The notes beneath the pieces are model-generated. The model made no database searches and had not been told where the DNA came from. It saw only the letters and a program-made list of their open reading frames with translations. From Planctomycetaceae bacterium (GTDB lineage Bacteria; Planctomycetota; Phycisphaerae; Phycisphaerales; SM1A02), in contig JAIXVI010000147.1 in assembly GCA_027483065.1 (NCBI GenBank), forward strand, positions 1 to 33,681: 33,681 nt of DNA, in the 5' to 3' direction. Position 1 is the first letter of the stretch; each line of letters starts with the position of its first letter. This document shows positions 713 through 28,099 of this stretch, piece after piece. A program made the translations under genes and the position numbers.

Positions 713-1816
713 TCACCCGCAGACGCGGGCGGCGGCGCGCACGGCGTCGCTCGCGCTCAACGCGCAGCCGTCGGCGCCGACGACTTTCCAGAGATCTGGA
801 ATCGCGCGGAATGGACCGCCACCAACGAGGATCGCGGGGCAATCGGTGCCGCATTCGCGGCGGATCGCCGCGATGGCATCCGCGATCGAACGGACGACGA
901 GGCCCGTGCTCGCGGAGAGGCAAATGAGATCGAACTTTACGCGGCTTGCCGTGCCATCGCCAGTGTCGGCGACGTCATCGCGGATGTGATCGAGGATGTC
1001 GATCGTCGGCATGTTCGCGCCGAGGCAATCGACCTGCCAACCATCCGACTCAAGCAAGTCAGACACCATGCGAATACCGACGTCGTGGAGGTCGCCACCA
1101 ACACTCGCGGCAAGAGCCCACTTTCCGTTCGAGTTGCCTGCGGGCAGTTTCGCGCGCAACACCGACATCGCTGCTTGCGTCGCAGTCGTCACGTAGTGTT
1201 CATCCGCAACCGTCGCCTCGCGCAGGTGCCACATGCGGCCAACTTCGACCAGTGCCGGCGCGATCACACTTTCGTAGACCTCCGCCACGCTTCGGCCACT
1301 GCGAACAGCTTCAAGCAGCACATCGATCGCTTTCGCTTGTTTCCGCTCAAGCATGTGCATGAGGTAGAGACGCGCACGCGTGCCATCGACATACGGCGCG
1401 TCGAGCAAACTCGCCACCACGCCGTCGTCCTTCGGCGAACGCTCGAGCGCGGCAATTCCTTCCGCAATGAAGCGACCAGCGCGTGAGGCAACCTGCGCGG
1501 GCAACTCCGCACGCACGGTTTCTTCGAGTGCTTTCAAACTCTCGAGAAGATCGTTCGGCTCCATCTCACGCGCGAGGAACGCCGCGCGCGCCCACTCGAC
1601 GCTCTCGAGGAAAATGCCAACACGATCCGCCGCAATCGCCTCCGCGAGATACTGGAGGCGATTCGTCATCTCGCCCTTCCAGAGCGGCCGCGCTTGACTG
1701 CCGTAACGCGCTTCGAGGCCAGGATTCCGTTCGAACAAGAGCCCAAGCGACCACTCTGCGAGCGCGCGGGACACGCCGTCGATCGATTCTGCGAACTGCC
1801 TGTCAAGAGGAAGCAT
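713..1816 (-). CDS. CarH-type B12-binding photosensory protein without DNA-binding domain
   Basis: A 367-residue protein with three parts. Residues about 1-130 are helical and resemble an RsbRD-like N-terminal sensor or regulatory region (weak inference). Residues about 140-225 match the four-helix B12 cap domain, and about 230-367 the Rossmann B12-binding domain. W196-x9-E206-H207 is the Wx9EH motif of CarH/LitR photoreceptors, H197 directly follows W196 as does the light-state cobalt ligand of CarH, and D242-L-H244-D-V-G247 is the DxHxxG motif whose His is the lower ligand. In that family adenosylcobalamin holds a dark state that light breaks. CarH carries a MerR-type helix-turn-helix; none is visible here, so the output is probably protein-protein. 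It could instead be a light-independent B12 sensor. It is a single gene in its own gap-flanked position behind the GH15 gene. Confidence 0.85.
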   Translation of the reverse strand: MLPLDRQFAESIDGVSRALAEWSLGLLFERNPGLEARYGSQARPLWKGEMTNRLQYLAEAIAADRVGIFLESVEWARAAFLAREMEPNDLLESLKALEETVRAELPAQVASRAGRFIAEGIAALERSPKDDGVVASLLDAPYVDGTRARLYLMHMLERKQAKAIDVLLEAVRSGRSVAEVYESVIAPALVEVGRMWHLREATVADEHYVTTATQAAMSVLRAKLPAGNSNGKWALAASVGGDLHDVGIRMVSDLLESDGWQVDCLGANMPTIDILDHIRDDVADTGDGTASRVKFDLICLSASTGLVVRSIADAIAAIRRECGTDCPAILVGGGPFRAIPDLWKVVGADGCALSASDAVRAAARVCG

Positions 1817-1959: not shown

Positions 1960-3972
1960 TCATCGCGATTTTCCGAATGCGCGCTCGGCGAGGCTGCCCG
2001 ATGGGCGCCCCGTCAGTTGCGCGTGCTTCAACAGGTACTTAATCGTCACCGTCATCACCGTCGCGTGCGACCACGTCAGCGGGCTCACCGACATCGGCGC
2101 GCCCGTGTACGGGTCGAATTGCTCGGCAAGGACACCCGACGGGAACGCGCGATCCGCGGTCCAGTGCAGGTACGGCAGCGCGAGTTCGAGTTGCTCGACG
2201 GTCTCGGCGCAGTCGATCAGCCACTGCGCGACCCACAACGTGCAGATAACCCACGGGTTGCCCGGCACGTCCTTGAGATTTGAGTGTTCGACGCGGTGGT
2301 AGTAGTCGTTCTCGTAACGCGCGAGGCCGCCGATATGGGTCTTCACCCACAGCCGCTCGCGCACTGCTTCCATCATCGAAACGACCTTCGGGTCGCGCGC
2401 GTCCATCGCGCCGAACGCGAACAGTGCGTACGCACTCGAATCGATCGTCATATCGAGGCGATATGTGCCATCTGAGAGCGGCGTCGCCATGCGGGCGAAG
2501 CGGCCGCGTTCCGGTTCCCACATGTGGCGAATCATCGCGCCGCGCATGCGCTCCGCGCCTTCGTTGAACTCACTCGCGCGGTCGTACGCGCCCATGTCTT
2601 GCGCGAAGCTCGCGGCCGCTTTCAACGCGCCGATCGTCGAGGCAACGGTGAAGAGATGTACACCGCGTCGCTCTTCCCAAAGATCCCACGAGGGCAGCGG
2701 CAATCCGTTGTGATCGCGATAGCGAAGAATCCAGTTCGCTGGCTCGACCACGAGTGTGTTGTAGGTCGTCTTGATGAACTCGACGTCGCGGAACACTTGG
2801 AAGTGTCGTCGCAGCGCCCAAATGACGAGCGACGTTTCGTCCTGCTGAATCGGGAGTACGCGCTCGCCGTCGAGCACCGCCGGATGCCAACTCGACGCGA
2901 GTGTTCCGGTCGGGTTGTACTTGTGCAGGAAGTAGCCGTCTTTCGTGATGACCTTCTCGCAGAAACGGAAGAAGTTTCGCGAGAGTTCGCCGTGGCCTGC
3001 GAGCACAAGCGCGTGCGACACAAGCGCGCCGTCGCGTGGCCACATGTACGAGTACGTGTCGCCGGCGAAGTGCGTGATGTCGTAATCGTTCGCGGCGATG
3101 ATCGCGCCGTTGTTGTCGATCTGCGTGCGGCAAATCACTTGGCTTCGCACGAACATGTCGCGCAAACGCTCGGGCAACGGCGACAAATCGAGCGGCTCTT
3201 TCAATGCCCAAAGTCGCCAGTACGCCTCGGTGCGATCCATCATCCGTTGCGGCGATTTGATGCGGATCTTGTCGTTCAGCGCAACGACCTGCTCGTGCGT
3301 ACGTCCCGCAGCGAGCCAGCAGTGCATCGAGCCTGAACCCCACGGCGCGAGCGCGAGGCCAAAGCCGATCGTTGAGTCGACCGAACCTTGCGCGATCGAG
3401 TGCCGCGAAAGCAGGCCATCTTCCGCGTCACGCCATGTGCCCTCTGCGTCGCCGATGCGCTTGGCACCGGTCGCCCAGTGATCGACGCCGAAACGGCCCG
3501 ACGAGCAACCATTCAACAGGAAGTAGACGTTGTCCTTGTAGTGAACGAGGCCGCCCGTTTGCGGGTCGAACATCACCGTGTCACCGACAGGCGACTCGTT
3601 GACGCTGATGTCGTGGTGGAAGAAGACGCGCACATCGCGCGGCTTTCCGAGGATGTCGGTCACAACCACGCGGCGAAAATAGACGGGGCTCCAGTAGTCG
3701 ACGGCGTCATTGCAAATGACTTCGACGCCGAGTCGCTCGTGGCGCAGGCGCACTTCCGTCACCATCGTGTCGGGCTTGTAGCGAAGGTCGCGCATCCAAC
3801 CTGGTGAATCGATCCACGCGAATTGCCCGTCCGCCCAAATGCCGAAGCGTTGCAGATGGCCACCGGTGTGATTCGGCTGTCCGACGTGCGGCCAATAGAG
3901 GTCGCGCATTCGGTACTGATCGTCGAACGCGACGAGCATTTCGCCGTTTCCGACAGGGATGTTGCGTGGCAT
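1960..3972 (-). CDS. Glycoside hydrolase family 15 (glucoamylase/trehalase-like)
   Basis: The 670-residue protein has the GH15 layout: an N-terminal beta-sandwich (about 1-250) and a C-terminal (alpha/alpha)6 barrel (about 270-650). Visible signatures are MWPRDGA at 310-316, the general acid region LWEERRG with E433/E434, and the general base E617 in LAEQFDP followed by SPLTWSHA. GH15 enzymes release glucose from alpha-glucans or split trehalose by inversion; the exact substrate cannot be told from sequence alone. There is no signal peptide (MPRNIPVGNGEML), so it is probably cytoplasmic and may act on glycogen, maltodextrin or trehalose. AAGG about 8 bases upstream of the ATG supports the start. 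It lies between fliN (130 bp upstream) and the B12-binding gene. Confidence 0.93.
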   Translation of the reverse strand: MPRNIPVGNGEMLVAFDDQYRMRDLYWPHVGQPNHTGGHLQRFGIWADGQFAWIDSPGWMRDLRYKPDTMVTEVRLRHERLGVEVICNDAVDYWSPVYFRRVVVTDILGKPRDVRVFFHHDISVNESPVGDTVMFDPQTGGLVHYKDNVYFLLNGCSSGRFGVDHWATGAKRIGDAEGTWRDAEDGLLSRHSIAQGSVDSTIGFGLALAPWGSGSMHCWLAAGRTHEQVVALNDKIRIKSPQRMMDRTEAYWRLWALKEPLDLSPLPERLRDMFVRSQVICRTQIDNNGAIIAANDYDITHFAGDTYSYMWPRDGALVSHALVLAGHGELSRNFFRFCEKVITKDGYFLHKYNPTGTLASSWHPAVLDGERVLPIQQDETSLVIWALRRHFQVFRDVEFIKTTYNTLVVEPANWILRYRDHNGLPLPSWDLWEERRGVHLFTVASTIGALKAAASFAQDMGAYDRASEFNEGAERMRGAMIRHMWEPERGRFARMATPLSDGTYRLDMTIDSSAYALFAFGAMDARDPKVVSMMEAVRERLWVKTHIGGLARYENDYYHRVEHSNLKDVPGNPWVICTLWVAQWLIDCAETVEQLELALPYLHWTADRAFPSGVLAEQFDPYTGAPMSVSPLTWSHATVMTVTIKYLLKHAQLTGRPSGSLAERAFGKSR

Positions 3973-4698: not shown

Positions 4699-5942
4699 TT
4701 GAAGACAAGGCTCACGTTGTGGCCGCCGAAGCCGAACGTGTTGTTCAGCGCGACGTTGACACGGGCTTCCTGCGCAACGTTCGGGACGAAGTTCAGATCG
4801 AAGCCTTCGTCGGCGTTGTCGAGGTTGATCGTCGGGGCAAGGACGCCCTCGTGGATCGCCATGATGGTCGGAATCGTTTCGATTCCGCCCGCGGCGCCAA
4901 GCGCGTGGCCGGTCATGGACTTGGTCGAACTCATCGCGACCTTGTACGCGTGATCGCCAAAGAGCCGCTTCACCGCGCCAACTTCAGCCTTGTCGCCGAG
5001 CGGCGTCGAGGTGCCGTGCGCGTTGATGTAACCAACGTCCGACACGGAGAGTTCAGCGTCGCGCAGCGCGGTTTCCATCGCCTTGTAGGCGCCGGAGCCT
5101 TGCTCATCGGGCGCCGCGATGTGGAACGCGTCACCCGTCGCGCCGTAGCCAGCGAGCTCGGCGTAGATCCGTGCGCCGCGCTTCTTCGCGTGTTCGAGTT
5201 CTTCGAGCACGACGATCGCCGAGCCTTCCGAAAGCACGAAGCCATCGCGATCTTTGTCGAAGGGTCGCGAGGCTCTGGTTGGATCGTCGTTGCGCGTCGA
5301 CAACGCTTTCATCGACGCAAACGCGGAGAGGGTGAGCGGCGTGATGGCCGCTTCCGCGCCGCCTGCAACCATGACGTCACAGTCACCGCGCTGAATCGCT
5401 TGCATCGCGATACCCATCGCGTGACCGCTCGACGCGCAGGCCGAAGCGACAGCGGTGCTCGGCCCGCGGAGATTGAATTGGATCGAAACGTTGCCGGGCG
5501 CAGCGTTCACCATAAGACGCGGCACAACGAACGGACTCACGCGGCGCGGGCCAGTTTGCAGGAGCTTCGTGTGGCCCTCTTCCATCGTGAGAACGCCACC
5601 GATGCCCGAACCGATGATCGTGCCGTTTCGGTACGGATCAGCAGCGTTCTTGAGATCGAGGCCGGAATCTTGCACGGCTTCATGCGCCGCAACCATCGCG
5701 AAGAGCGCGACGCGGTCGATGCGCTTCTGCTCGCGGCCATCCACAACGTGCGATGGATCGAAGTCGTGGATTTCGCCCGCGAAACGGACGGTCCAGTCTT
5801 CGTTCTGAGGGAAACTCCGCAGGGGCGAGATGCCGGACTTGCCGGCCTTCATCGCCGCCCACGTCGCGGTCGCGGTCGGTCCGAGGTTCGAGATGGCGCC
5901 GATACCGGTGACGACGACTCGGCGGAGCGTGATGGTCTTCAT
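4683..5942 (-). CDS. fabF: 3-oxoacyl-[acyl-carrier-protein] synthase II (KASII)
   Basis: The 419-residue protein condenses malonyl-ACP with acyl-ACP in the elongation step of type II fatty-acid synthesis. The thiolase-fold catalytic triad is complete: nucleophile C169 in VASACASSG, H309 in NAHGTSTPLGD and H346 in SMTGHALGAAG; the GFGGHN loop is at 404-409. Length and ends match the family. The ATG has GAGGGA about 8 bases upstream. It follows the second ACP gene by 11 bp and is surely co-transcribed with it. The last four codons and the stop lie inside the first unit of a 17-bp tandem array that runs into the intergenic region. Confidence 0.97.
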   Translation of the reverse strand: MKTITLRRVVVTGIGAISNLGPTATATWAAMKAGKSGISPLRSFPQNEDWTVRFAGEIHDFDPSHVVDGREQKRIDRVALFAMVAAHEAVQDSGLDLKNAADPYRNGTIIGSGIGGVLTMEEGHTKLLQTGPRRVSPFVVPRLMVNAAPGNVSIQFNLRGPSTAVASACASSGHAMGIAMQAIQRGDCDVMVAGGAEAAITPLTLSAFASMKALSTRNDDPTRASRPFDKDRDGFVLSEGSAIVVLEELEHAKKRGARIYAELAGYGATGDAFHIAAPDEQGSGAYKAMETALRDAELSVSDVGYINAHGTSTPLGDKAEVGAVKRLFGDHAYKVAMSSTKSMTGHALGAAGGIETIPTIMAIHEGVLAPTINLDNADEGFDLNFVPNVAQEARVNVALNNTFGFGGHNVSLVFKRFVG

Positions 5943-5953
5943 CGGTACGTCCC

Positions 5954-6211
5954 TCAGCGGCCGCCTGCAAGCGTGCGCTGGATGAACTCGATCGCGTCAG
6001 CGACCGTGGTGAGTTTGCTCGCGGCTTCGTCGGTGATCGAGATTTCGAAGAGGTCTTCGAATTCCATCATCAACTCAGCCTTGTCGAGGCTGTCGCAGAT
6101 CTTGTCGAACTCGCTCGCGCGAGTGACATCCGTCCGGGCAACGCCCAGTTGGTCTGCGATGGCCTCGACGACCTTCGCCTCAATTTCAGATTCAGAAAGT
6201 GAAGCCGACAT
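5954..6211 (-). CDS. Second acyl carrier protein
   Basis: An 85-residue acyl carrier protein. The phosphopantetheine attachment serine is S41 in DSLDKAELMMEFEDLFEI, followed by the usual third helix and TVADAIEFIQRTL at the C-terminus. Apart from DSLD and the acidic helix II it is clearly different from the acpP product encoded 91 bp upstream: the segment before the serine is EFDKICDSLD instead of NDLNADSLD. It has no strong Shine-Dalgarno sequence. Placed between acpP and fabF, it could serve a specialised acyl chain (for example lipid A or a secondary elongation route) or be a second housekeeping ACP; the sequence does not decide this. Confidence 0.9.
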   Translation of the reverse strand: MSASLSESEIEAKVVEAIADQLGVARTDVTRASEFDKICDSLDKAELMMEFEDLFEISITDEAASKLTTVADAIEFIQRTLAGGR

Positions 6212-6302
6212 GGACTTCGTCCACCCGTGGCGGTTTACAGAGCGCGAGCGGCCAATCTCTTGGGGCGCATCGCGGATCTACCGCCACCGGGTGGAGCACC
6301 TT

Positions 6303-6551
6303 TCAGCCCTGCGGGCGGTTCGCCTTGATGAAGTCGATCGCTTGTCCGACGGTGTGGATCTTCTCCGCCTGCTCGTCGGGGATCTTCGTACCGAACTGCG
6401 CCTCAAACTCCATGAGCAACTCGACGATGTCGAGGCTGTCGGCGTTGAGGTCGTTGGTGAAGCTCGTCTCGCGGGTGATCGACTCGGGCTCCGCATCGGT
6501 GTGCTGGGCAACGATGTCGATGACCTTCTTTTCGATCTCGGCGTCGGTCAC
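6303..6551 (-). CDS. acpP: Acyl carrier protein AcpP
   Basis: An 82-residue canonical ACP with the phosphopantetheine site S39 in NDLNADSLDIVELLMEFE and the conserved C-terminus TVGQAIDFIKANR. It carries growing acyl chains as thioesters for all Fab enzymes in the cytoplasm. The start codon is GTG at 6551-6549 with GGAG seven bases upstream. It lies between fabG and a second ACP gene, matching the standard fabG-acpP-fabF order. The 335-bp gap upstream suggests its own promoter and a long leader, which fits the high ACP demand of cells. Confidence 0.96.
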   Translation of the reverse strand: MTDAEIEKKVIDIVAQHTDAEPESITRETSFTNDLNADSLDIVELLMEFEAQFGTKIPDEQAEKIHTVGQAIDFIKANRPQG

Positions 6552-6886
6552 GGTCTGCTCCTTCGTAAGGCCCCTTGGGGGCGATTTGCTGGCTGCTCGT
6601 CTCGGTTTTGTCTCGCGTGATCGGCGATTTGGACCGCACAGAGTGTGGTCCTCAAGCTGTCACGAACTTTCACAATCTGATTCTGTCGCACACTGCGCCT
6701 GGCACCGCGCCTGAACAAACGGCCGGTCTTTCGGCGTCCTCGAAGCGGTCTTGCGACCATCGATGGGTTCTGGAACCCGCCACTGTCGAGGGGGGCGGAA
6801 TATAGCGAAAACGCTTCGCGCTTGCCCTGCCCGCTGCACCCGTGCGCAGGAACTGCGCGTGATGCTTCGCGGGACTCGCTGAACGC
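6552..6886 (-). promoter_or_regulatory. Long fabG-acpP spacer with candidate acpP promoter and leader
   Basis: No gene is visible in these 335 bp. On the minus strand a TATATT hexamer (6799-6804) is the best -10 candidate; the matching -35 (GGGCAA at 17 bp) is poor. It would give a leader of about 240 bases to the acpP GTG. Within that leader GGACC/GGTCC arms with an inner CAC/GTG pair (6634-6654) can form a small hairpin. A leader of this length could hold regulation, but no known riboswitch was recognised. Confidence 0.35.
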
Positions 6887-7648
6887 TTACGCGGCCATGC
6901 CGCCATCGACCACGATCGTCTGCGCGGTGAAGAAACCCGCTTCATCGCTCGTCGCGTACGCAACCGCAGCGGCGATTTCTTCGGGCTTACCAAAGCGGCG
7001 CACCGGGATGTTTGGAAGGACAGCGGTCTTGACCGCGTCGCCGAGGATGTCGGTCATGTCGGTCTCGATGAAGCCAGGGGCGACGACGTTCGCGGTGATG
7101 TTCTTCGCGCCCATTTCCTTCGCGACCGTCTTCGTGAAGCCGACAAGCGCGGCCTTCGCGGCAGCGTAGTTCGCTTGGCCCGCATTGCCGGACAGTCCCG
7201 AGACGCTGCCGATGTTGACGATGCGGCCGAACTTGCCGCGCATCATGGGGCGCAGCGCGGCGCGGCAGGCCACGAAAACCGAGCGAAGGTTGACGTTGAG
7301 CACTTCGTCCCACTGCTCGTCCGTCATGCGGAGAAGCAGCGTGTCGCGGGTGATGCCTGCGTTGTTGACGAGAATGTCGAGGCGACCGTGGGTTTCGGCG
7401 ACGCCGTCCACGAGTTGCTGCACGTCGGCGGAGTTCGCGATGTCGCAGGGGCGAACTTCACAGGATCCACCGGCAGCCTTGATGGCCGCGTCGGTCGCGG
7501 CGAGTCCCTCGGCGCTGCGTGCGACGAGAACGACGTGGCGTCCGTCCTTGGCGAGACGTTCCGCGATGGCTCGACCGATTCCTCGGCTTGCTCCGGTGAC
7601 GATGGCGACGCGCTTCTCGATGACTCTAGCCTCCAGGTGCTGCGGCAT
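6887..7648 (-). CDS. fabG: 3-oxoacyl-[acyl-carrier-protein] reductase
   Basis: A 253-residue short-chain dehydrogenase with the NADPH-binding TGASRGIG motif at 18-25, NNAG at 95-98, and the catalytic S148, Y161 and K165 in NIGSVSGLSGNAGQANYAAAK; the PGFIETDM and VDGGMA motifs complete the FabG signature. It reduces 3-ketoacyl-ACP in the elongation cycle. The start used is ATG 7648; no Shine-Dalgarno precedes it, and TAGACT 15 bases upstream is a -10 candidate, so a very short leader is possible. It is separated from the upstream lipoprotein gene by an intrinsic terminator, so it likely begins a second transcription unit fabG-acpP-ACP-fabF. Confidence 0.96.
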   Translation of the reverse strand: MPQHLEARVIEKRVAIVTGASRGIGRAIAERLAKDGRHVVLVARSAEGLAATDAAIKAAGGSCEVRPCDIANSADVQQLVDGVAETHGRLDILVNNAGITRDTLLLRMTDEQWDEVLNVNLRSVFVACRAALRPMMRGKFGRIVNIGSVSGLSGNAGQANYAAAKAALVGFTKTVAKEMGAKNITANVVAPGFIETDMTDILGDAVKTAVLPNIPVRRFGKPEEIAAAVAYATSDEAGFFTAQTIVVDGGMAA

Positions 7649-7702
7649 GCAGCGAGGGCAACGAGTCTAACGGAAGCGATGCGGCGCGTGGGAAGCAGCA
7701 TG

Positions 7703-7720
7703 CGTGTCGAAAGCGACACG
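7703..7720. other. Small perfect hairpin upstream of fabG
   Basis: CGTGTCG-AAAG-CGACACG, a seven-base-pair stem with a four-base loop, lies 55 bp upstream of the fabG start. It may belong to the upstream transcript end or be a regulatory site; no function can be assigned. Confidence 0.4.
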
Positions 7721-7780
7721 AGGCATGATGATGCGAACAAAGAAGGCACAAGCCAGCAAGACACGCGCTCGACACGCGCC

Positions 7781-7816
7781 AAAAAGACACAAGCCGTCGA
7801 TCGCGACGGCTTGTGT
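7781..7816 (-). terminator. Intrinsic terminator after the lipoprotein gene
   Basis: A perfect 13-bp stem (7787-7799 paired with 7804-7816, loop ATCG) is followed on the minus strand by CTTTTT. It lies 31 bp after the lipoprotein stop codon and ends the rpmF-plsX-fabH-fabD-lipoprotein unit before fabG. Confidence 0.9.
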
Positions 7817-7846
7817 GTATTCATCGTGTTTCTTCGAGCGATCCGC

Positions 7847-8632
7847 TCACTGCTGGCCGAATCCTGGTGGCTTCGGTGGCTTGATCGGTGCGCCCGGTGC
7901 GCGCTTACCAGGAGCGCCGCCCGGTGCCGACGGTCCGGTTGGTCCCGGAGTCTCGCCGCCGCTCTCACCGCTCGACGCGGTTTCGACTTCGGTGAAGTCC
8001 TTCTGCGGGATTTCGAGCACGACGTCGGGCTCGTCAGCCTTCGCGAGTTCCTTCTTCACGATGTCGTACCACACGGCGATGTGATCGTCGCCGCTGAGTT
8101 GATTCATGATGTTCGGTGGCGAGGGAACTGAGTCGAACTCAGCACTCGTCGAACCAGCGCTGTAGGTCCAGAGTTGAGGCTCGAATTCATCGCCGACGTG
8201 GAAGACGGCGAGCGAGCAGCGATCAGAATCTTGGCGACCGCAACGGACGTCGATGCGCGTGACCGCGTCGGTCGATGCCTTGAACGCTCCCGACTCGACG
8301 AGTCGATCGAGTTCGGCTTGGTCGACGCTCGAGAGCATGCCCTTGAGCGACTCGATGTTGCCGCGCGCGAAGGAGTCATAGAACTTGAGGACCGCGATGC
8401 GCTCGACGTCGGTCGCAGGGGCGTCGGCCTCGGGGAGGTTGACGCGCTGATCGATGTCGTGCTTCGCCATGAGTTCCGAAATCGGAGTCACCGGCGGTGG
8501 CGGCGGGGCGGTTGGCTTCGGCGGCGGCGGGGGAGCCGTCACAACCGGCGGCGGTTCTTCACCGCAGGCAACGAGTGCGCTCGACGCGGCGAGCGCGGAG
8601 AGCGTGAGGATGAAGCGATTACGGCGCGTCAT
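7847..8632 (-). CDS. Proline-rich lipoprotein inserted in the fab cluster
   Basis: A 261-residue protein with a type II signal peptide: basic n-region MTRRNR, hydrophobic core and lipobox LVAC with C23 as the lipidated residue. After it comes a proline-rich linker (PPPVVTAPPPPPKP), a globular middle (about 55-200) with two cysteines (VRCGRQDSDRC) and a glycine/proline-rich tail. I do not recognise the middle domain. Its start lies 14 bases inside fabD, so it is translationally coupled to fabD and ends at a terminator. Membrane-anchored and co-expressed with lipid synthesis genes, it may act in the envelope, but no function can be stated. Confidence 0.85.
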   Translation of the reverse strand: MTRRNRFILTLSALAASSALVACGEEPPPVVTAPPPPPKPTAPPPPPVTPISELMAKHDIDQRVNLPEADAPATDVERIAVLKFYDSFARGNIESLKGMLSSVDQAELDRLVESGAFKASTDAVTRIDVRCGRQDSDRCSLAVFHVGDEFEPQLWTYSAGSTSAEFDSVPSPPNIMNQLSGDDHIAVWYDIVKKELAKADEPDVVLEIPQKDFTEVETASSGESGGETPGPTGPSAPGGAPGKRAPGAPIKPPKPPGFGQQ

Positions 8633-22170: not shown

Positions 22171-22462
22171 CTCCTGCGCGATCGGCGCCGTCGGATGTTT
22201 CGAGCCATGCTCGATTCGACCCCCGATGCGTGACCTAGAGCGTCCGCGATCGTGCGTGGCGGCCTGATGCTCGGGGCTCATGAGGGTGCCCTTGCGACTT
22301 CGGCCATGACTCCCTTTTCTCGATTTCTCGGGCGCGTGTTGACGCGCTCGATTTCTTCTGTGAAACGGGTATTTTTCGACTCTCTCCGCGATCCGTGCGC
22401 GGGGCGTCGTTGTTCGTCGCATACCTTGATTGCCCTACACGTTGGATCTACTGGAGTCGAAT

Positions 22463-25048
22463 ATGAGCACGCGCCACGTTCAAACGCTCGTCACCTCGCG
22501 CATACTGCCACTCCTCGTCGTCGCCATCGGTTGGCTTGCGGGGCTGGGAGCGCTGGAGTCGTTCAGCGGATCCGCATCCGCACAATCGAGCCGTGACGTG
22601 GTCGGGGGGCCAATCACGACGCAGCGACTCGAGCGTTTCCTCGCGGCGTATGTCATGCCCACCGACGCGGAAGCGGAGGCGATCGACCGCTTGCACGAGT
22701 CGTACCTCGACCGCTATCGCGCAGAGATCGAGCCAGAGGCGTCGACCGTCATGGCGAGCATGAGTGGCGGACAGCCGACGAAGGACCAGTTTGAGAAGTT
22801 CCTTCGCGATCTCGAGCGCATCCAAGCAAAGCTTGCTGATGCGGACAATCAGTTTCTCGCTTCTGCAACCGAACTTGTGGCCGAGTCACGTCGCGGCGGC
22901 ATGCAGCGTGTGCGCGAAGCACGCGAACGCCAGCGACTCTTGGCGGGCATCGTTCGATTTGCGCCGATGATGCTCGGCGGCGGTGCTGGATTCACCGATC
23001 TTCCCGCGCGCGCGATTCGCGAAGAGTACTTCGGTCGCGTTTCCGCGGAGAATCGCGAGGCATTCGATGCGGCGCTCCGCTCGCAAGAGCAGCGCACGCT
23101 CTCACAGGCGCGTGCGTACAACGCCGACGTTCGCAAGGCGCTCGTCGGATTCTTCGACATCATGACGGAGATGCAGCAGGCGATGACTGCAGCGGGTGCA
23201 GACCCGAGCAATCCAGACATGGCCGCGATGGAGCAGCAGCAGCGTGCCATGATGGAAAAACTCACGGCGCTCGGCGCTGACATTCGGAAGTCGGTGAAAT
23301 CGAACTTCGAAGCAAATCGTGCGGGCGCGGCGGCGCTGGCCGCACTACTCCCTGAAGCGGTTGGGCTTGGGCTTCGCCTCGACGTCGCGGACACCACCGT
23401 CAACAGCGTTGGCTTTGCCTCCAACAACATCTCCCGCACGCGCATGCGTTCGCTGGGAGGTCGCATCGAACGCGACCCAGATATCTCGGCGGAGGCCAAG
23501 TCGGAGATTGCGCGCGTTCTGTCGAATTGGATGCGCGAGCAAGCGCAGGCAAACGAGAAACTCGCCGAGGTGATGCTCGATGCACCAGGTCGCGAGGGCA
23601 TGTTCGGGATGTCGGGTGAATCCGAAGCGGTCGCCGCCGCGCGGAAAAGTGCACGCGATGTTGGCGACTCGGCGCTGAAGGCGATCAGCTCGAAACTTGG
23701 TGACAAAGCTGGCACGTACGTCGCGACGTTCACAGGCTATGAAGAAGACGGCACCGAGCGCGAGTATTACCGCGTGGCGAGTGCTCCGAAGCTTGCGGAG
23801 AGCGATGCGAATGCCGACGCGATGGCGCAAGCAGACGCGCAGCGTCGTTCCGCATTCTTGGACGGCAACGCCTACTTTGCGCCCGATGCTTTGACCGCCG
23901 CAGACGTCGTGCGGATCGGGCGCGTGGTTGGGCTCGACAGCACGGCACAAAGCGTGGTCGAGGCGATCGTCGAAGGATGGAAGACGACGCAGTGGGACGC
24001 GCAAATGCAATCGATGGCTGATCGGATGGAAGACCTTGGCCAGAAGCGTGTGTCCACTGATGGCAGTGGGGCGATCATCTACGACGAGGCGGCGACGCGC
24101 GCGTTCGAAGATTTGCGCGTGCAAGTCGCGGCCTTGACGTTCGAACTCGACGAGAAGTTGTACGCAGATCTCGCGAGTGCGCTCGGCCTCGCGAGCGACG
24201 ATGCGCTTCTCACGCTCTTGCGACTCGAGCGCTCGGACTTGGCCATTTCGCGCGCGACGGTCGGATACGGCGGGACTTCCATGGGTATGCCATTGCCGCT
24301 CTCGCGGACACTTGCGGCGGCATCGGTTGATCCAGCCGTCGCACGCGCTGTTCTCGATGGCGCGAAGGCTGAGCTCGGCGCCATCGCGAAGGCACTCCCC
24401 GCGCGCGTCCGTGAGCGCATGGAACTGAACCGCAAAACGCGTCAAGTCGAGCAGGTCTTCTCGACACGCGATCAGGCCGCGGTCGAGCGCGCATCGCGTG
24501 AATACGGCGAACTTCTGCTGAAAGCGCAGCGCGACGATCGCGCGTTTGCCGAGTCGATCGTGAAGGCATATCTCGATGCGTTCCAAGCGCACGCTGGCGA
24601 TGCGGAAACAGTTTCCGCCGTTCGGCGTGAGCTTCTCCGAGGGGCCTATCCCGACATCTACAAGCGCACGGAAACGGCACAGCCGCAACTCGATGCCGCC
24701 GCACGCTTGCCTGCGCTCTCGGAAGATCAGCGCGCGCGTATCGCCGCGCTGTCAGCGGAGTATGAAGCCGTTTACGACAAACTCAGCAGCGAAATGGCCC
24801 AGCCATCGGGCATGCCGATGACGGGTGCCATGGACGAGGCAGGTTGGGCGGAGTACCAGAAGCGCGCCGAAGCGATTGAGAAAGCCCGCTTCAATCGCAA
24901 GGAACGCACGGAGAAGGCGCTTTCCGAACTGCGTCGCGTACTTGGTGCGGAGAACGCGGCGCTTGTGCCAGGGCTCGTCAAAGACGACGCCGCAACCGCC
25001 ACGGACGACGAAGACATGAACCCGTGGATGGGACGCGAAGAAGATTGA
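22463..25048 (+). CDS. Large exported helical protein, paralogue 1
   Basis: An 861-residue protein with a signal peptide (MSTRHVQTLVTSRILPLLVV..., cleavage probably after SASA-40 before Q41). The mature part is almost all helix-forming and highly charged, with stretches such as FEKFLRDLERIQAKLADADNQFLASATELVAESRR; a glutamine/methionine-rich segment (MAAMEQQQRAMMEKL) lies near residue 260. The start ATG has GGAG seven bases upstream. No catalytic motif recognised, so a periplasmic structural or binding role is a guess. From about residue 480 on it aligns by eye with the next gene product: ALTAADVVRIGRVVGLDS with PSASDLRRVGAALRLDG, and ALGLASDDALLTLLRLE with AFGMPLDAAARTALRLE. Confidence 0.85.
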   Translation: MSTRHVQTLVTSRILPLLVVAIGWLAGLGALESFSGSASAQSSRDVVGGPITTQRLERFLAAYVMPTDAEAEAIDRLHESYLDRYRAEIEPEASTVMASMSGGQPTKDQFEKFLRDLERIQAKLADADNQFLASATELVAESRRGGMQRVREARERQRLLAGIVRFAPMMLGGGAGFTDLPARAIREEYFGRVSAENREAFDAALRSQEQRTLSQARAYNADVRKALVGFFDIMTEMQQAMTAAGADPSNPDMAAMEQQQRAMMEKLTALGADIRKSVKSNFEANRAGAAALAALLPEAVGLGLRLDVADTTVNSVGFASNNISRTRMRSLGGRIERDPDISAEAKSEIARVLSNWMREQAQANEKLAEVMLDAPGREGMFGMSGESEAVAAARKSARDVGDSALKAISSKLGDKAGTYVATFTGYEEDGTEREYYRVASAPKLAESDANADAMAQADAQRRSAFLDGNAYFAPDALTAADVVRIGRVVGLDSTAQSVVEAIVEGWKTTQWDAQMQSMADRMEDLGQKRVSTDGSGAIIYDEAATRAFEDLRVQVAALTFELDEKLYADLASALGLASDDALLTLLRLERSDLAISRATVGYGGTSMGMPLPLSRTLAAASVDPAVARAVLDGAKAELGAIAKALPARVRERMELNRKTRQVEQVFSTRDQAAVERASREYGELLLKAQRDDRAFAESIVKAYLDAFQAHAGDAETVSAVRRELLRGAYPDIYKRTETAQPQLDAAARLPALSEDQRARIAALSAEYEAVYDKLSSEMAQPSGMPMTGAMDEAGWAEYQKRAEAIEKARFNRKERTEKALSELRRVLGAENAALVPGLVKDDAATATDDEDMNPWMGREED

Positions 25049-25080
25049 TCGGAAGTCCGCGTGGCGCAAATCGAACTTCT

Positions 25081-25110
25081 CGCGCATGATGCGCGAGGAG
25101 TTTCGCGCGC
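25081..25110. repeat. 30-bp direct repeat, left copy
   Basis: Matches 28144-28173 at 29 of 30 positions. It contains the 15-base odd palindrome CGCGCATGATGCGCG, which in this copy extends to 19 bases from 25079 (CTCGCGCAT-G-ATGCGCGAG), followed by GAGTTTCGCGCGC. It lies 32 bp after the stop of paralogue 1. Confidence 0.9.
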
Positions 25111-25273
25111 GATTTCGGGCCGATCGAGGGGAATCGCGAGATCGTCGAACTCCATCCACATTCCCCGCACCTCACGATGCAGGCGATGCGAACGAGCGGA
25201 ACCGCGATGCGCCCGGCGAACCATCCGTCGTGAGAGTCGCCGCCATGAGCGCCACCGTCGTGGGAGCCCTCCG

Positions 25274-28099
25274 ATGAAACAGATCATCGCGAAACAGATC
25301 ATCGCAAGACCGGCCTTTGCGAAATCCACCTGTGCGAAGCCCGTCGTCCTCGCCGCAATGATCGCTGCGCTGGGCGCGATCGGATCGGCGGGCGCGGCTT
25401 GCGCCATCGATGCGTCCGCAGCCCGCGCCGTCGCGCCAGTCCTTTCCCGCGCTTCCGGTCCTTCGACTGCCGCGGGACATGCGTCGTTTCCGTCCGCGTT
25501 CGGCCGCAGCAACACGCCGCTCGATCAGGCTCCGCGGCCGGTGAGCCTCGTCGAGGTGCTCTACGAGGCGACGCGCGTACTCGATGCCGGCGGCACGGCG
25601 CTCGAGGCGATCGAGAAGGCGTACGCCGAGTTCGGCGCGCAGTGGCGCACGCGGCTTCCGCCCAAGAATGCGCGCCTCGCGGAGTCGGACGCAACCGCGG
25701 ACGCGCGCGACGACGATGCGGTCGAGCGGGCTCGACTTCGCGCGTTCGAGTCGGCCTGGGCCGATGCCGACACGCTGCACGCGGCGCTCGCGGAGCGCGT
25801 GATCGCATCGTGCGTCGAGGAGGGGATCGAACGCGCGCGCGATCCGGTCGCGCAGGCGAATTTCCGCGGCCGTCTCGCGCATCGCGCCGCGTTCTCCGAC
25901 GGCGAGTGCGTCCCGCTCGAACGGCTGCCGATCCTCACGACGCCCTGCGTCGATCTCGCGATCGCGCTCGGTCATCCGCGCGTGATGCAGTGCGTTCCGG
26001 CCGAGCGGCGCGCCACGGTCGAGGCGCTTCTCGCCGCCGAGTGGCCGCGCATCCTGTCCGAGCACCAGATGGTGCGCGGGATCGGATTCGCACTCGCCGA
26101 ACAGGAGCGGCGCGCGCAGAGGGTCGACGGCCACACCGCCGGACCGATCGGAAATGCCGCCGCGATCGAGGCCTGCGCGTCGATCGCGCGACTCGTCCGC
26201 GCGAATCTCGACGCGAACATGCGCTTCACCGCGCGGATCGAGGCCGAGGTCGGCGTCGACGCCGCCGACGCGCTGCGCGTCGAGTTGATCTCGAACGCCT
26301 GTCGAGACGGCGGATTCGCGGAGGGGATCGTCGATCAGTGGGGCTCCGTCGAGCGGCTTCTCCGTCGACTTCGCGACGACCGTGGGCTCGACGAAACGGC
26401 GCGCGCATCGGCGCTGCGCCTCGTGCGGGAGGAGCGACGGCGCTTCATCGCCGAGTGCGTGGCGGCGTATCGCAGCGTCCTCGCCGACGAACGCAGCTTC
26501 TCGCCCGGGATCGAGGTGCCGGGCGGCAGCGGTGTTCCGCTGGACCTCGCGTTCATGACCGGGTCGCCGGGTTCCGAGGAGCTTCGCGCGCGATTCGAGC
26601 GCGCGGCGCAGTCTTCGGCGGCGGAATCGTTCGATGCGCGGCTTGCGCGACTTGCCGGTGTCGCTGCGACCGCGCCGCGCGACCGGGACGATGTCGGCGG
26701 CGCTGGCCCCATCCTGCACTCCGACGTGGATGCGGACCGCGAGCGGCTCTTCCGCACGAACTTCGAGCATCGCTTCCTTGACGAAGGCGGTGGCCACGAC
26801 GAAGGCGGTGGCCACGACGAAGGCGGTGCGTCGGGGATGGGTTCGGCCGACGACGTTGCTGCGGACGATGGCGGCGATGCCGAGGCGCCGCGGCCATCCG
26901 CGTCGGACCTCCGGCGCGTCGGCGCCGCGCTCCGGCTCGACGGGATCGATCGGCCGCGCCAGGAGATCGAGCCCGTGCTCGACGCCTTCCTGCGATCGTG
27001 GATCGCGTCGCGGCCCGACGGTGATTCCTCCGCTTCGGCGATGTTCGCGCGTCGGCGCGTCGAGCATGCCGCGGGCGCGCGTGGACGCGACCTCGAGGCG
27101 TGGCGCGAACTTCCCGACGTCGTACGCTGCGAGGCGGAGTTCGACGACGCGCGCGCGAAGGTGCTGGCGGCTGCGTTCGGCATGCCGCTCGATGCCGCGG
27201 CGCGCACGGCGCTGCGCCTTGAACAGGTCGGCCACTTCCTCGCCGCCCGGGAGCCTGCCTTCGGCGGGTTCCTCCCCGACGGGATCCTCGCGACCGCGAC
27301 CGCGTGCGGTCTCGATCGCGCCGGGCAGCGGGCGTTCCTCGTCGAACTCGCGCCCGCGGTCGACGCGCTCGCCGACGCGCTTCCGGCGCTGGCCGATCGC
27401 GCGCGTGACGCGGCCGCTTCCGATCTCGCCGCCGAGCGGGCGCTGCAGGCGCGCGCGGAACGGGAGTCGGGCGACTCGGAAGGCGTGATGGACCGCGTCG
27501 AGCGTGGGGGACCGGTGCTCGACGCGACGAATGCGTTCGAGGCGGAGATGGAACTGCGCATCTGCCGCATGCTGCTCGATGCCCTGCGCGCGATCGAGAT
27601 CGATCCGCTGGTCCGGCTTCGATGTGGTCTCCGCCTCGTCGAGCGCGTGACGCGGACGGGTTGGAACGGGCCGACGTCGACGATCCGGCTGATCGGCGTC
27701 GTGCGCGAGGCGCTCGGCGACGACCCCGAGCGTCGCGCGCGACTCGATGCGTGCGAAAGGTCGCTCCTCGAGGAGGCGCTCGGCGAACTCCCCCCGCGCG
27801 AGGATCTAGCGCGCCGTGATGCGGTGGTCGCTGGCGCGGATGGAGCCGACCCGCATGCCGCGGCATGGGCCGCATGGCGCGATGATCGATGGCGACGGGA
27901 GGAGACCGCGCTTCGCAGAGGTACGCCAGATTTGGGCCCTCGTGCCAGCGACCTCGAGGGCCACCGGATGCGCCTCGTCCTCGAGTCGATCGACGGTGCC
28001 GCGAACGAGCCGCGGCTCCAGCGGATCGTGGCCATGCGGTACGCGACCGTCCTCGGGCGCCTGCGGCAGACACCGTTCGCGGACCAGTTTCATCCCTGA
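25274..28099 (+). CDS. Large exported helical protein, paralogue 2, high-GC
   Basis: A 941-residue protein from ATG 25274. The N-terminus MKQIIAKQIIARPAF (an in-frame 15-bp duplication) leads into a hydrophobic segment (VVLAAMIAALGAIGSAGAACA), so it is probably exported. The frame is open upstream to GTG 25061, but those 71 residues would precede the signal peptide and look non-coding. The mature part is helical, alanine/arginine/aspartate-rich, and aligns in order with several segments of the neighbouring 861-residue protein. A DEGGGHDEGGGHDEGG repeat (residues about 503-518) is an 18-bp expansion. Base composition stands out: 48 of 60 bases in 27361-27420 are G or C, against 37 of 60 in 23401-23460 of paralogue 1. 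Function unknown. Confidence 0.82.
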   Translation: MKQIIAKQIIARPAFAKSTCAKPVVLAAMIAALGAIGSAGAACAIDASAARAVAPVLSRASGPSTAAGHASFPSAFGRSNTPLDQAPRPVSLVEVLYEATRVLDAGGTALEAIEKAYAEFGAQWRTRLPPKNARLAESDATADARDDDAVERARLRAFESAWADADTLHAALAERVIASCVEEGIERARDPVAQANFRGRLAHRAAFSDGECVPLERLPILTTPCVDLAIALGHPRVMQCVPAERRATVEALLAAEWPRILSEHQMVRGIGFALAEQERRAQRVDGHTAGPIGNAAAIEACASIARLVRANLDANMRFTARIEAEVGVDAADALRVELISNACRDGGFAEGIVDQWGSVERLLRRLRDDRGLDETARASALRLVREERRRFIAECVAAYRSVLADERSFSPGIEVPGGSGVPLDLAFMTGSPGSEELRARFERAAQSSAAESFDARLARLAGVAATAPRDRDDVGGAGPILHSDVDADRERLFRTNFEHRFLDEGGGHDEGGGHDEGGASGMGSADDVAADDGGDAEAPRPSASDLRRVGAALRLDGIDRPRQEIEPVLDAFLRSWIASRPDGDSSASAMFARRRVEHAAGARGRDLEAWRELPDVVRCEAEFDDARAKVLAAAFGMPLDAAARTALRLEQVGHFLAAREPAFGGFLPDGILATATACGLDRAGQRAFLVELAPAVDALADALPALADRARDAAASDLAAERALQARAERESGDSEGVMDRVERGGPVLDATNAFEAEMELRICRMLLDALRAIEIDPLVRLRCGLRLVERVTRTGWNGPTSTIRLIGVVREALGDDPERRARLDACERSLLEEALGELPPREDLARRDAVVAGADGADPHAAAWAAWRDDRWRREETALRRGTPDLGPRASDLEGHRMRLVLESIDGAANEPRLQRIVAMRYATVLGRLRQTPFADQFHP
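26780..26830. repeat. 18-bp in-frame tandem repeat in paralogue 2
   Basis: Two full units GACGAAGGCGGTGGCCAC (26780-26797, 26798-26815) and 13 bases of a third (26816-26828), running on to 26830. They encode repeated DEGGGH in a probable flexible linker and are identical at base level, so the expansion is recent. Confidence 0.95.

Follow-up and report, generated by a model that had tools for sequence, protein, structure and literature searches.

Photocobilins combine in one chain a B12 photosensor, recognizable by its W, EH, and E/DxH motifs, and a globin-like domain with a biliverdin (BV) pocket. In SasPcob, Asp270 is the main BV-binding residue, and Trp296 contacts both ring D of BV and the corrin; the position of Asp270 is occupied by His in AbPcob, a poor BV binder (PMC10979010). 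SasPcob has a Gln at the bis-His position and ends with a water or hydroxide ligand (PMC10979010). A group of photocobilins with a C-terminal adenosylcobalamin (AdoCbl) domain was mentioned already in 2024 (PMC10979010), and the globin-B12 arrangement is therefore known. The published light signature is composed of GxxW, EH, GxxH, and GxxxP (PMC11796333), and the role of the Wx9EH motif has been described for CarH/LitR, in which Wx9EH and ExHxxG together define the B12 motif (PMC8156234).

Here we describe a gene in a 33,681-nucleotide stretch of DNA from a freshwater planctomycete (contig JAIXVI010000147.1 of assembly GCA_027483065.1; the whole stretch is referred to as the window). Its protein carries the B12 photosensor motifs and the globin-like BV-pocket domain of photocobilins in a single chain. 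Sequence profiles and a predicted structure support its placement with the photocobilins and photoglobins rather than with CarH proteins that have lost their helix-turn-helix domain.

The gene and its predicted AdoCbl photosensor

The open reading frame of 367 amino acids lies on the minus strand, with its ATG at 1816 and its stop codon at 713-715, and the gene, together with its CarH-type B12 light signature, is real. Two contigs of freshwater MAGs carry near-identical copies (97-99%); one of them is from Lake Erken, and the other, from a pond, is called Planctomycetaceae. Elsewhere in the genus, orthologs are 65-71% identical, so that the genus and the pond and lake MAGs overall span 65-99%. 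A 69%-identical copy was found on a contig binned as Limnohabitans (locus L006, JASGCF010000179.1), which is probably a misbinned planctomycete contig. Scanning for promoters and terminators gave no signal exceeding that of shuffled sequences.

713..1816, minus strand: photocobilin-like gene, globin domain then AdoCbl domain (367-aa open reading frame and orthologs)
716..1390, minus strand: predicted AdoCbl photosensor, four-helix bundle and Rossmann fold, residues 143-367 (PF02607 and PF02310; SasPcob fold match)
1196..1231, minus strand: Wx9EH cap motif, W196-H197...E206-H207, in which H197 corresponds to CarH His132 (W and E invariant, H207 near-invariant)
1076..1093, minus strand: D242-x-H244-x-x-G247, in which H244 is the predicted lower axial ligand (H244 and G247 in 52/52 relatives)

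Pfam recognized B12-binding_2 (PF02607) at residues 154-220 (E=1.2e-11) and B12-binding (PF02310) at 234-362 (E=3.1e-15). The protein was modeled with AlphaFold2 (7 sequences, mean pLDDT 82, pTM 0.68; the relative orientation of the domains in this model is not reliable), and the B12 part of the model superposed best on SasPcob 8j2w (Z 24.4, with 208 residues aligned at 2.4 A). The CarH/LitR B12 motif is present as a DxHxxG variant, and the remaining elements of the published light signature were also found (G193, G241, G266, and P270). Across 24 relatives, the B12 part was invariant at exactly G193, W196, E206, H207, H244, G247, G266, and P270 and at a few structural residues; in a wider set of 52, W196, E206, G266, and P270 were likewise found in every sequence and H207 in 51. 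The preliminary description of this DNA, made from the letters alone, had proposed a CarH-type light-sensing module that lacks a DNA-binding domain. Sequence and fold bear this out, since Pfam found no helix-turn-helix and all the residues named there (W196-H197, E206-H207, and DxHxxG) are present, with cap and ligand positions that are essentially invariant in relatives except for H197.

That exception concerns the bis-His light state that had also been predicted. H197 is kept in 22/24 sequences of the window's class but in only 32/52 of the wider set, where Q, L, E, A, M, or V stands elsewhere, and alignments place Gln (SasPcob) or Tyr (AbPcob) there in the solved photocobilins. Because H197 is present, a bis-His light state is possible in this protein, but the variability of the position and the Gln of SasPcob do not allow a confident prediction.

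As a control, we inspected 11 other B12-domain proteins, two from the same genome (MetH and a small paralog) and nine paralogs from the class. All lacked W196, and the axial His was missing from all except MetH, which indicates that the light signature is not general to B12-domain proteins. Widespread in the class is a B12-domain-like paralog (L002 on contig C189 of the window's genome, and L031-L039) from which both the cap Trp and the axial His have been lost; it has probably ceased to bind AdoCbl in the manner of a photosensor. The window's genome encodes a PduO-type adenosyltransferase (PF01923, E=7.3e-59), and AdoCbl can therefore be made from corrinoids.

An N-terminal bilin-pocket globin

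The preliminary description had seen a helical N-terminal region in place of the usual DNA-binding domain and had suggested a profile search and a structure prediction. There is indeed no helix-turn-helix, but the region is more than helical: by profile and predicted fold it is recognizable as a bilin-pocket globin (photoglobin). A profile built from 19 relatives for residues 1-145 and compared with all PDB sequences matched the BV-binding globin domain of SasPcob first (8j2x/8j2w, E=1e-7), followed by AbPcob (0.014) and allophycocyanin-beta (0.3), with designed helical proteins as the matches in between. A single-sequence search had already given a weak second match to photocobilin globins. 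In the AlphaFold2 model, residues 1-124 superposed on allophycocyanin 8uhe (Z 17.6, all 124 aligned at 2.1 A), and the N-terminus matched BV-bound smURFP 6fzn (Z 16.6). The SasPcob globin profile match, taken with the allophycocyanin fold, suggests that the protein is a photocobilin in globin-B12 order.

1439..1816, minus strand: predicted photoglobin (bilin-pocket globin) domain, residues 1-126 (SasPcob profile match and allophycocyanin fold)
1670..1672, minus strand: E49, aligned with SasPcob Asp270 (in this protein, SasPcob, and AbPcob alike, the invariant Trp follows 26 residues later)
1568..1594, minus strand: W75...R83, aligned with SasPcob Trp296 and AbPcob Arg297 (W75 in 52/52 and R83 in 45/52 relatives)

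Other identities for the N-terminus were considered and rejected. No catalytic family was found that would make it an enzyme; Pfam returned only a subthreshold match to FliG_C (E=0.05-0.16), which conflicts with the globin fold. A MerR or other helix-turn-helix domain hidden in this region was likewise not found by Pfam. RsbR-type globins were not among the matches of the N-terminal profile to the PDB, which is no proof of their absence.

Genomic neighborhood and sigma factor linkage in relatives

The photocobilin-like gene of the window is preceded on the same strand, across a gap of 143 nt, by a gene for a glucoamylase-like protein.

1960..3972, minus strand: upstream GH15 glucoamylase-like gene (PF00723, E=1.6e-25)

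Leaving the window aside, 6 of the 8 genomes of its family that carry the full-length gene have the same two genes adjacent. We know of no reason for a sugar hydrolase to adjoin a light sensor. Beyond the GH15 gene are a FliN-like gene and a fatty acid synthesis cluster. Farther along the window (22430-28099, plus strand), two long open reading frames of 872 and 1012 aa adjoin glpK/glpD-like genes.

A different neighborhood was found outside the window's family. In 22 of 40 phylum-wide loci there, an ECF sigma factor family gene lay near the photocobilin gene, and an RskA-type anti-sigma gene (PF10099) was found in 18 of the 40; neither gene occurred in any of 20 random 15-kb stretches from genomes of the same phylum (p=8e-6 for sigma, 1e-4 for RskA). 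These counts cover about 7 kb on either side. Common descent makes the loci non-independent, although the linked ones span ten families. In three families (f18, f7, and f21), genes for an ECF sigma factor (PF04542/PF08281) and an RskA-type membrane anti-sigma factor precede the photocobilin gene on the same strand at all 7 loci with a complete upstream region, and genes for fasciclin, DUF4397, PQQ-propeller, lipocalin, NmrA-DUF2867, SRPBCC, and photolyase proteins surround them. The ECF sigma-RskA-photocobilin operon was observed in other planctomycete families at loci L060-L065, L069, L146, L149, and L150. One linked set (locus L063) is arranged as follows.

5463-6119: ECF sigma factor
6116-6910: RskA-type anti-sigma factor
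6986-8047: photocobilin

Three further relatives, all in family f50, are fused to a histidine kinase (HisKA-HATPase-REC); the B12, kinase, and receiver domains are Pfam confirmed for L156 only.

L156, 6935-9400, plus strand: fused photocobilin
L160, 5669-8095, minus strand: fused photocobilin
L171, 1024-3417, minus strand: fused photocobilin

The linkage to sigma factors and the kinase fusions in relatives suggest a sensor that communicates with signaling proteins. The preliminary description had suggested signaling through protein contacts, for example by a stress-type partner switch. By analogy with the relatives, contact signaling that includes a stress sigma circuit is plausible, but the gene's own surroundings lend it no weight: sigma linkage was found at 0/9 of the relatives examined in the window's own family (f1), and the partner-switch components are missing, as the protein has no STAS domain and its neighbors are the GH15, FliN-like, and fatty acid synthesis genes, with no SpoIIE or RsbT gene among them.

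Elsewhere in the window's genome, contig C212 carries an ECF sigma factor 53% identical and an RskA relative 36% identical to the linked pair. Similar RskA genes also occur in a family member that lacks a photocobilin, and several members that have a photocobilin lack such RskA genes; since their distribution does not track that of the photocobilin, we regard the C212 pair as a lead only. The pair is followed by a protein of ~1300 aa (L099, C212:20631-28386); the genus has conserved this arrangement, which is not linked to the photocobilin gene. A literature search returned no report of a photocobilin-ECF sigma linkage. That search did not include the 2022 photoglobin paper (PMC8717448), which may cover gene neighborhoods, and we therefore do not claim that the linkage is unreported.

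Proposed mechanism and alternative explanations

The protein is very probably a stand-alone, globin-first photocobilin that would act as an AdoCbl light switch with output by protein contact, since it has no DNA-binding or enzymatic output domain. We infer AdoCbl binding, the light response, a change of oligomer, and any partner. In the dark, H244 would hold AdoCbl base-off/His-on; W196, E206, and H207 would form a cap over the adenosyl group, and two B12 domains would pack head to tail. Green light would cleave the Co-C bond and so release the adenosyl group; H197 (or water) would then enter the upper site, the cap helix would move, and the dimer (or higher oligomer) would dissociate. The N-terminal globin, seated on the B12 module, would relay this change to a partner protein and, if BV is available, may bind it and thereby extend sensing to red light.

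Two readings give the B12 domain another role. That the protein is the corrinoid protein of a methyltransferase or of some other B12 enzyme, and not a sensor, is extremely unlikely: NCBIfam does rank MtbC/MtgC first, but weakly and far below the cutoffs (about 50 bits versus 350-370), whereas the residues of the light signature are all present and invariant, the N-terminus is a predicted globin, no methyltransferase was found in the window neighborhood, and relatives are tied to sigma and anti-sigma genes or fused to kinases. Scarcely more credible is a regulator like AerR or AppA (SCHIC), linked to redox or heme. The B12 domains of AerR and AppA have the same fold (Z 19.5-20), but in the full-length profile the photocobilins were the top matches (E=1.4e-45), with AerR (2.1e-05) and AppA (0.006) far weaker in sequence similarity, and the Wx9EH cap is complete in the window protein.

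Assuming instead a photocobilin, the remaining question is whether its globin holds a chromophore. In SasPcob the globin binds BV, and both green and red light are sensed; the pocket residues kept here (the invariant W75, R83, and the acidic E49 at the Asp270 position) and the fold match to BV-bound smURFP would allow the same. Against this, a search of 298 genomes of the class for heme oxygenase (PF01126) found none in the window's genome, in 3 genomes of the same genus, or in 5 further genomes of the main family clade that carry the full-length gene, and no HugZ-like protein (PF10615) was found in the window's genome. Carriers in other families of the class often have heme oxygenase, but the association across the class is not significant (8/20 carriers versus 60/278 others, p=0.09). 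BV use by this protein is thus doubtful, and a dual-chromophore photocobilin in vivo seems unlikely to us. Because no heme oxygenase or HugZ-like protein was found, a B12-only green-light sensor is more likely here, and we lean toward a globin that serves as a chromophore-free structural and output domain, as has been proposed for the weakly BV-binding AbDPcob. The Asp270 position, which is highly variable among the 52 family sequences (H in 16, D in 10, E in 9, N in 4, and others), fits this preference; the conservation of W75 and R83 speaks against it, and BV might be taken up or made by an unrecognized enzyme.

For the relatives, the partner is most likely the adjacent RskA-type anti-sigma factor, with light freeing the ECF sigma factor. 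A tentative extension, which may well prove wrong, is that planctomycete photocobilins form the light input of ECF sigma circuits via RskA, through which green light would induce a set of photoprotection genes (fasciclin, lipocalin, NmrA-DUF2867, SRPBCC, and photolyase), and that the window protein left this operon and may act on the unlinked C212 pair or on another partner. The phylum-wide linkage would give photocobilins without an output domain a concrete route from light to gene expression; if true, a B12 photoreceptor would control a sigma factor by protein contact and not by DNA binding. Of these findings, the sigma factor linkage in relatives most deserves further work. Unlike the two solved photocobilins, the window's class has also retained the bis-His residue of CarH, and so it could show whether a large CarH-like rearrangement can coexist with a bilin globin.

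Comparison with known systems

The best profile and fold matches were the photocobilins SasPcob (8J2W/8J2X) and AbDPcob (8J2Y), which share the AdoCbl photosensor and the bilin-pocket globin; SasPcob, like the window protein, stands alone without an output domain. The window protein differs from both in its reversed domain order, with the globin first, in having His197 rather than Gln or Tyr, in the Glu at the Asp270 position, and in the lack of a detected heme oxygenase in its genome. CarH/LitR of Thermus and Myxococcus share the Wx9EH cap, the adjacent bis-His residue, the lower axial His, and the Rossmann fold with a four-helix bundle, but they carry a MerR-type DNA-binding domain where the window protein has its N-terminal globin; the protein scored 40.9 bits against the NCBIfam CarH equivalog, below the cutoff of 400. 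With the photoglobins and BBAG-2 bilin-binding globins (PMC10151467), it shares the phycobiliprotein-branch globin fold and an association with B12-binding proteins, but their CXQD or RGMC Cys motifs were not seen in it, and it has W75...R83-E-M instead. The loci of the relatives resemble the CarQ-CarR system in their ECF sigma factor, membrane anti-sigma factor, and light response gene set (PMC8156234). They differ in that CarR is a DUF1109-type anti-sigma factor driven by singlet oxygen (PMC8156234), whereas the relatives have an RskA-type anti-sigma factor beside a B12 photosensor.
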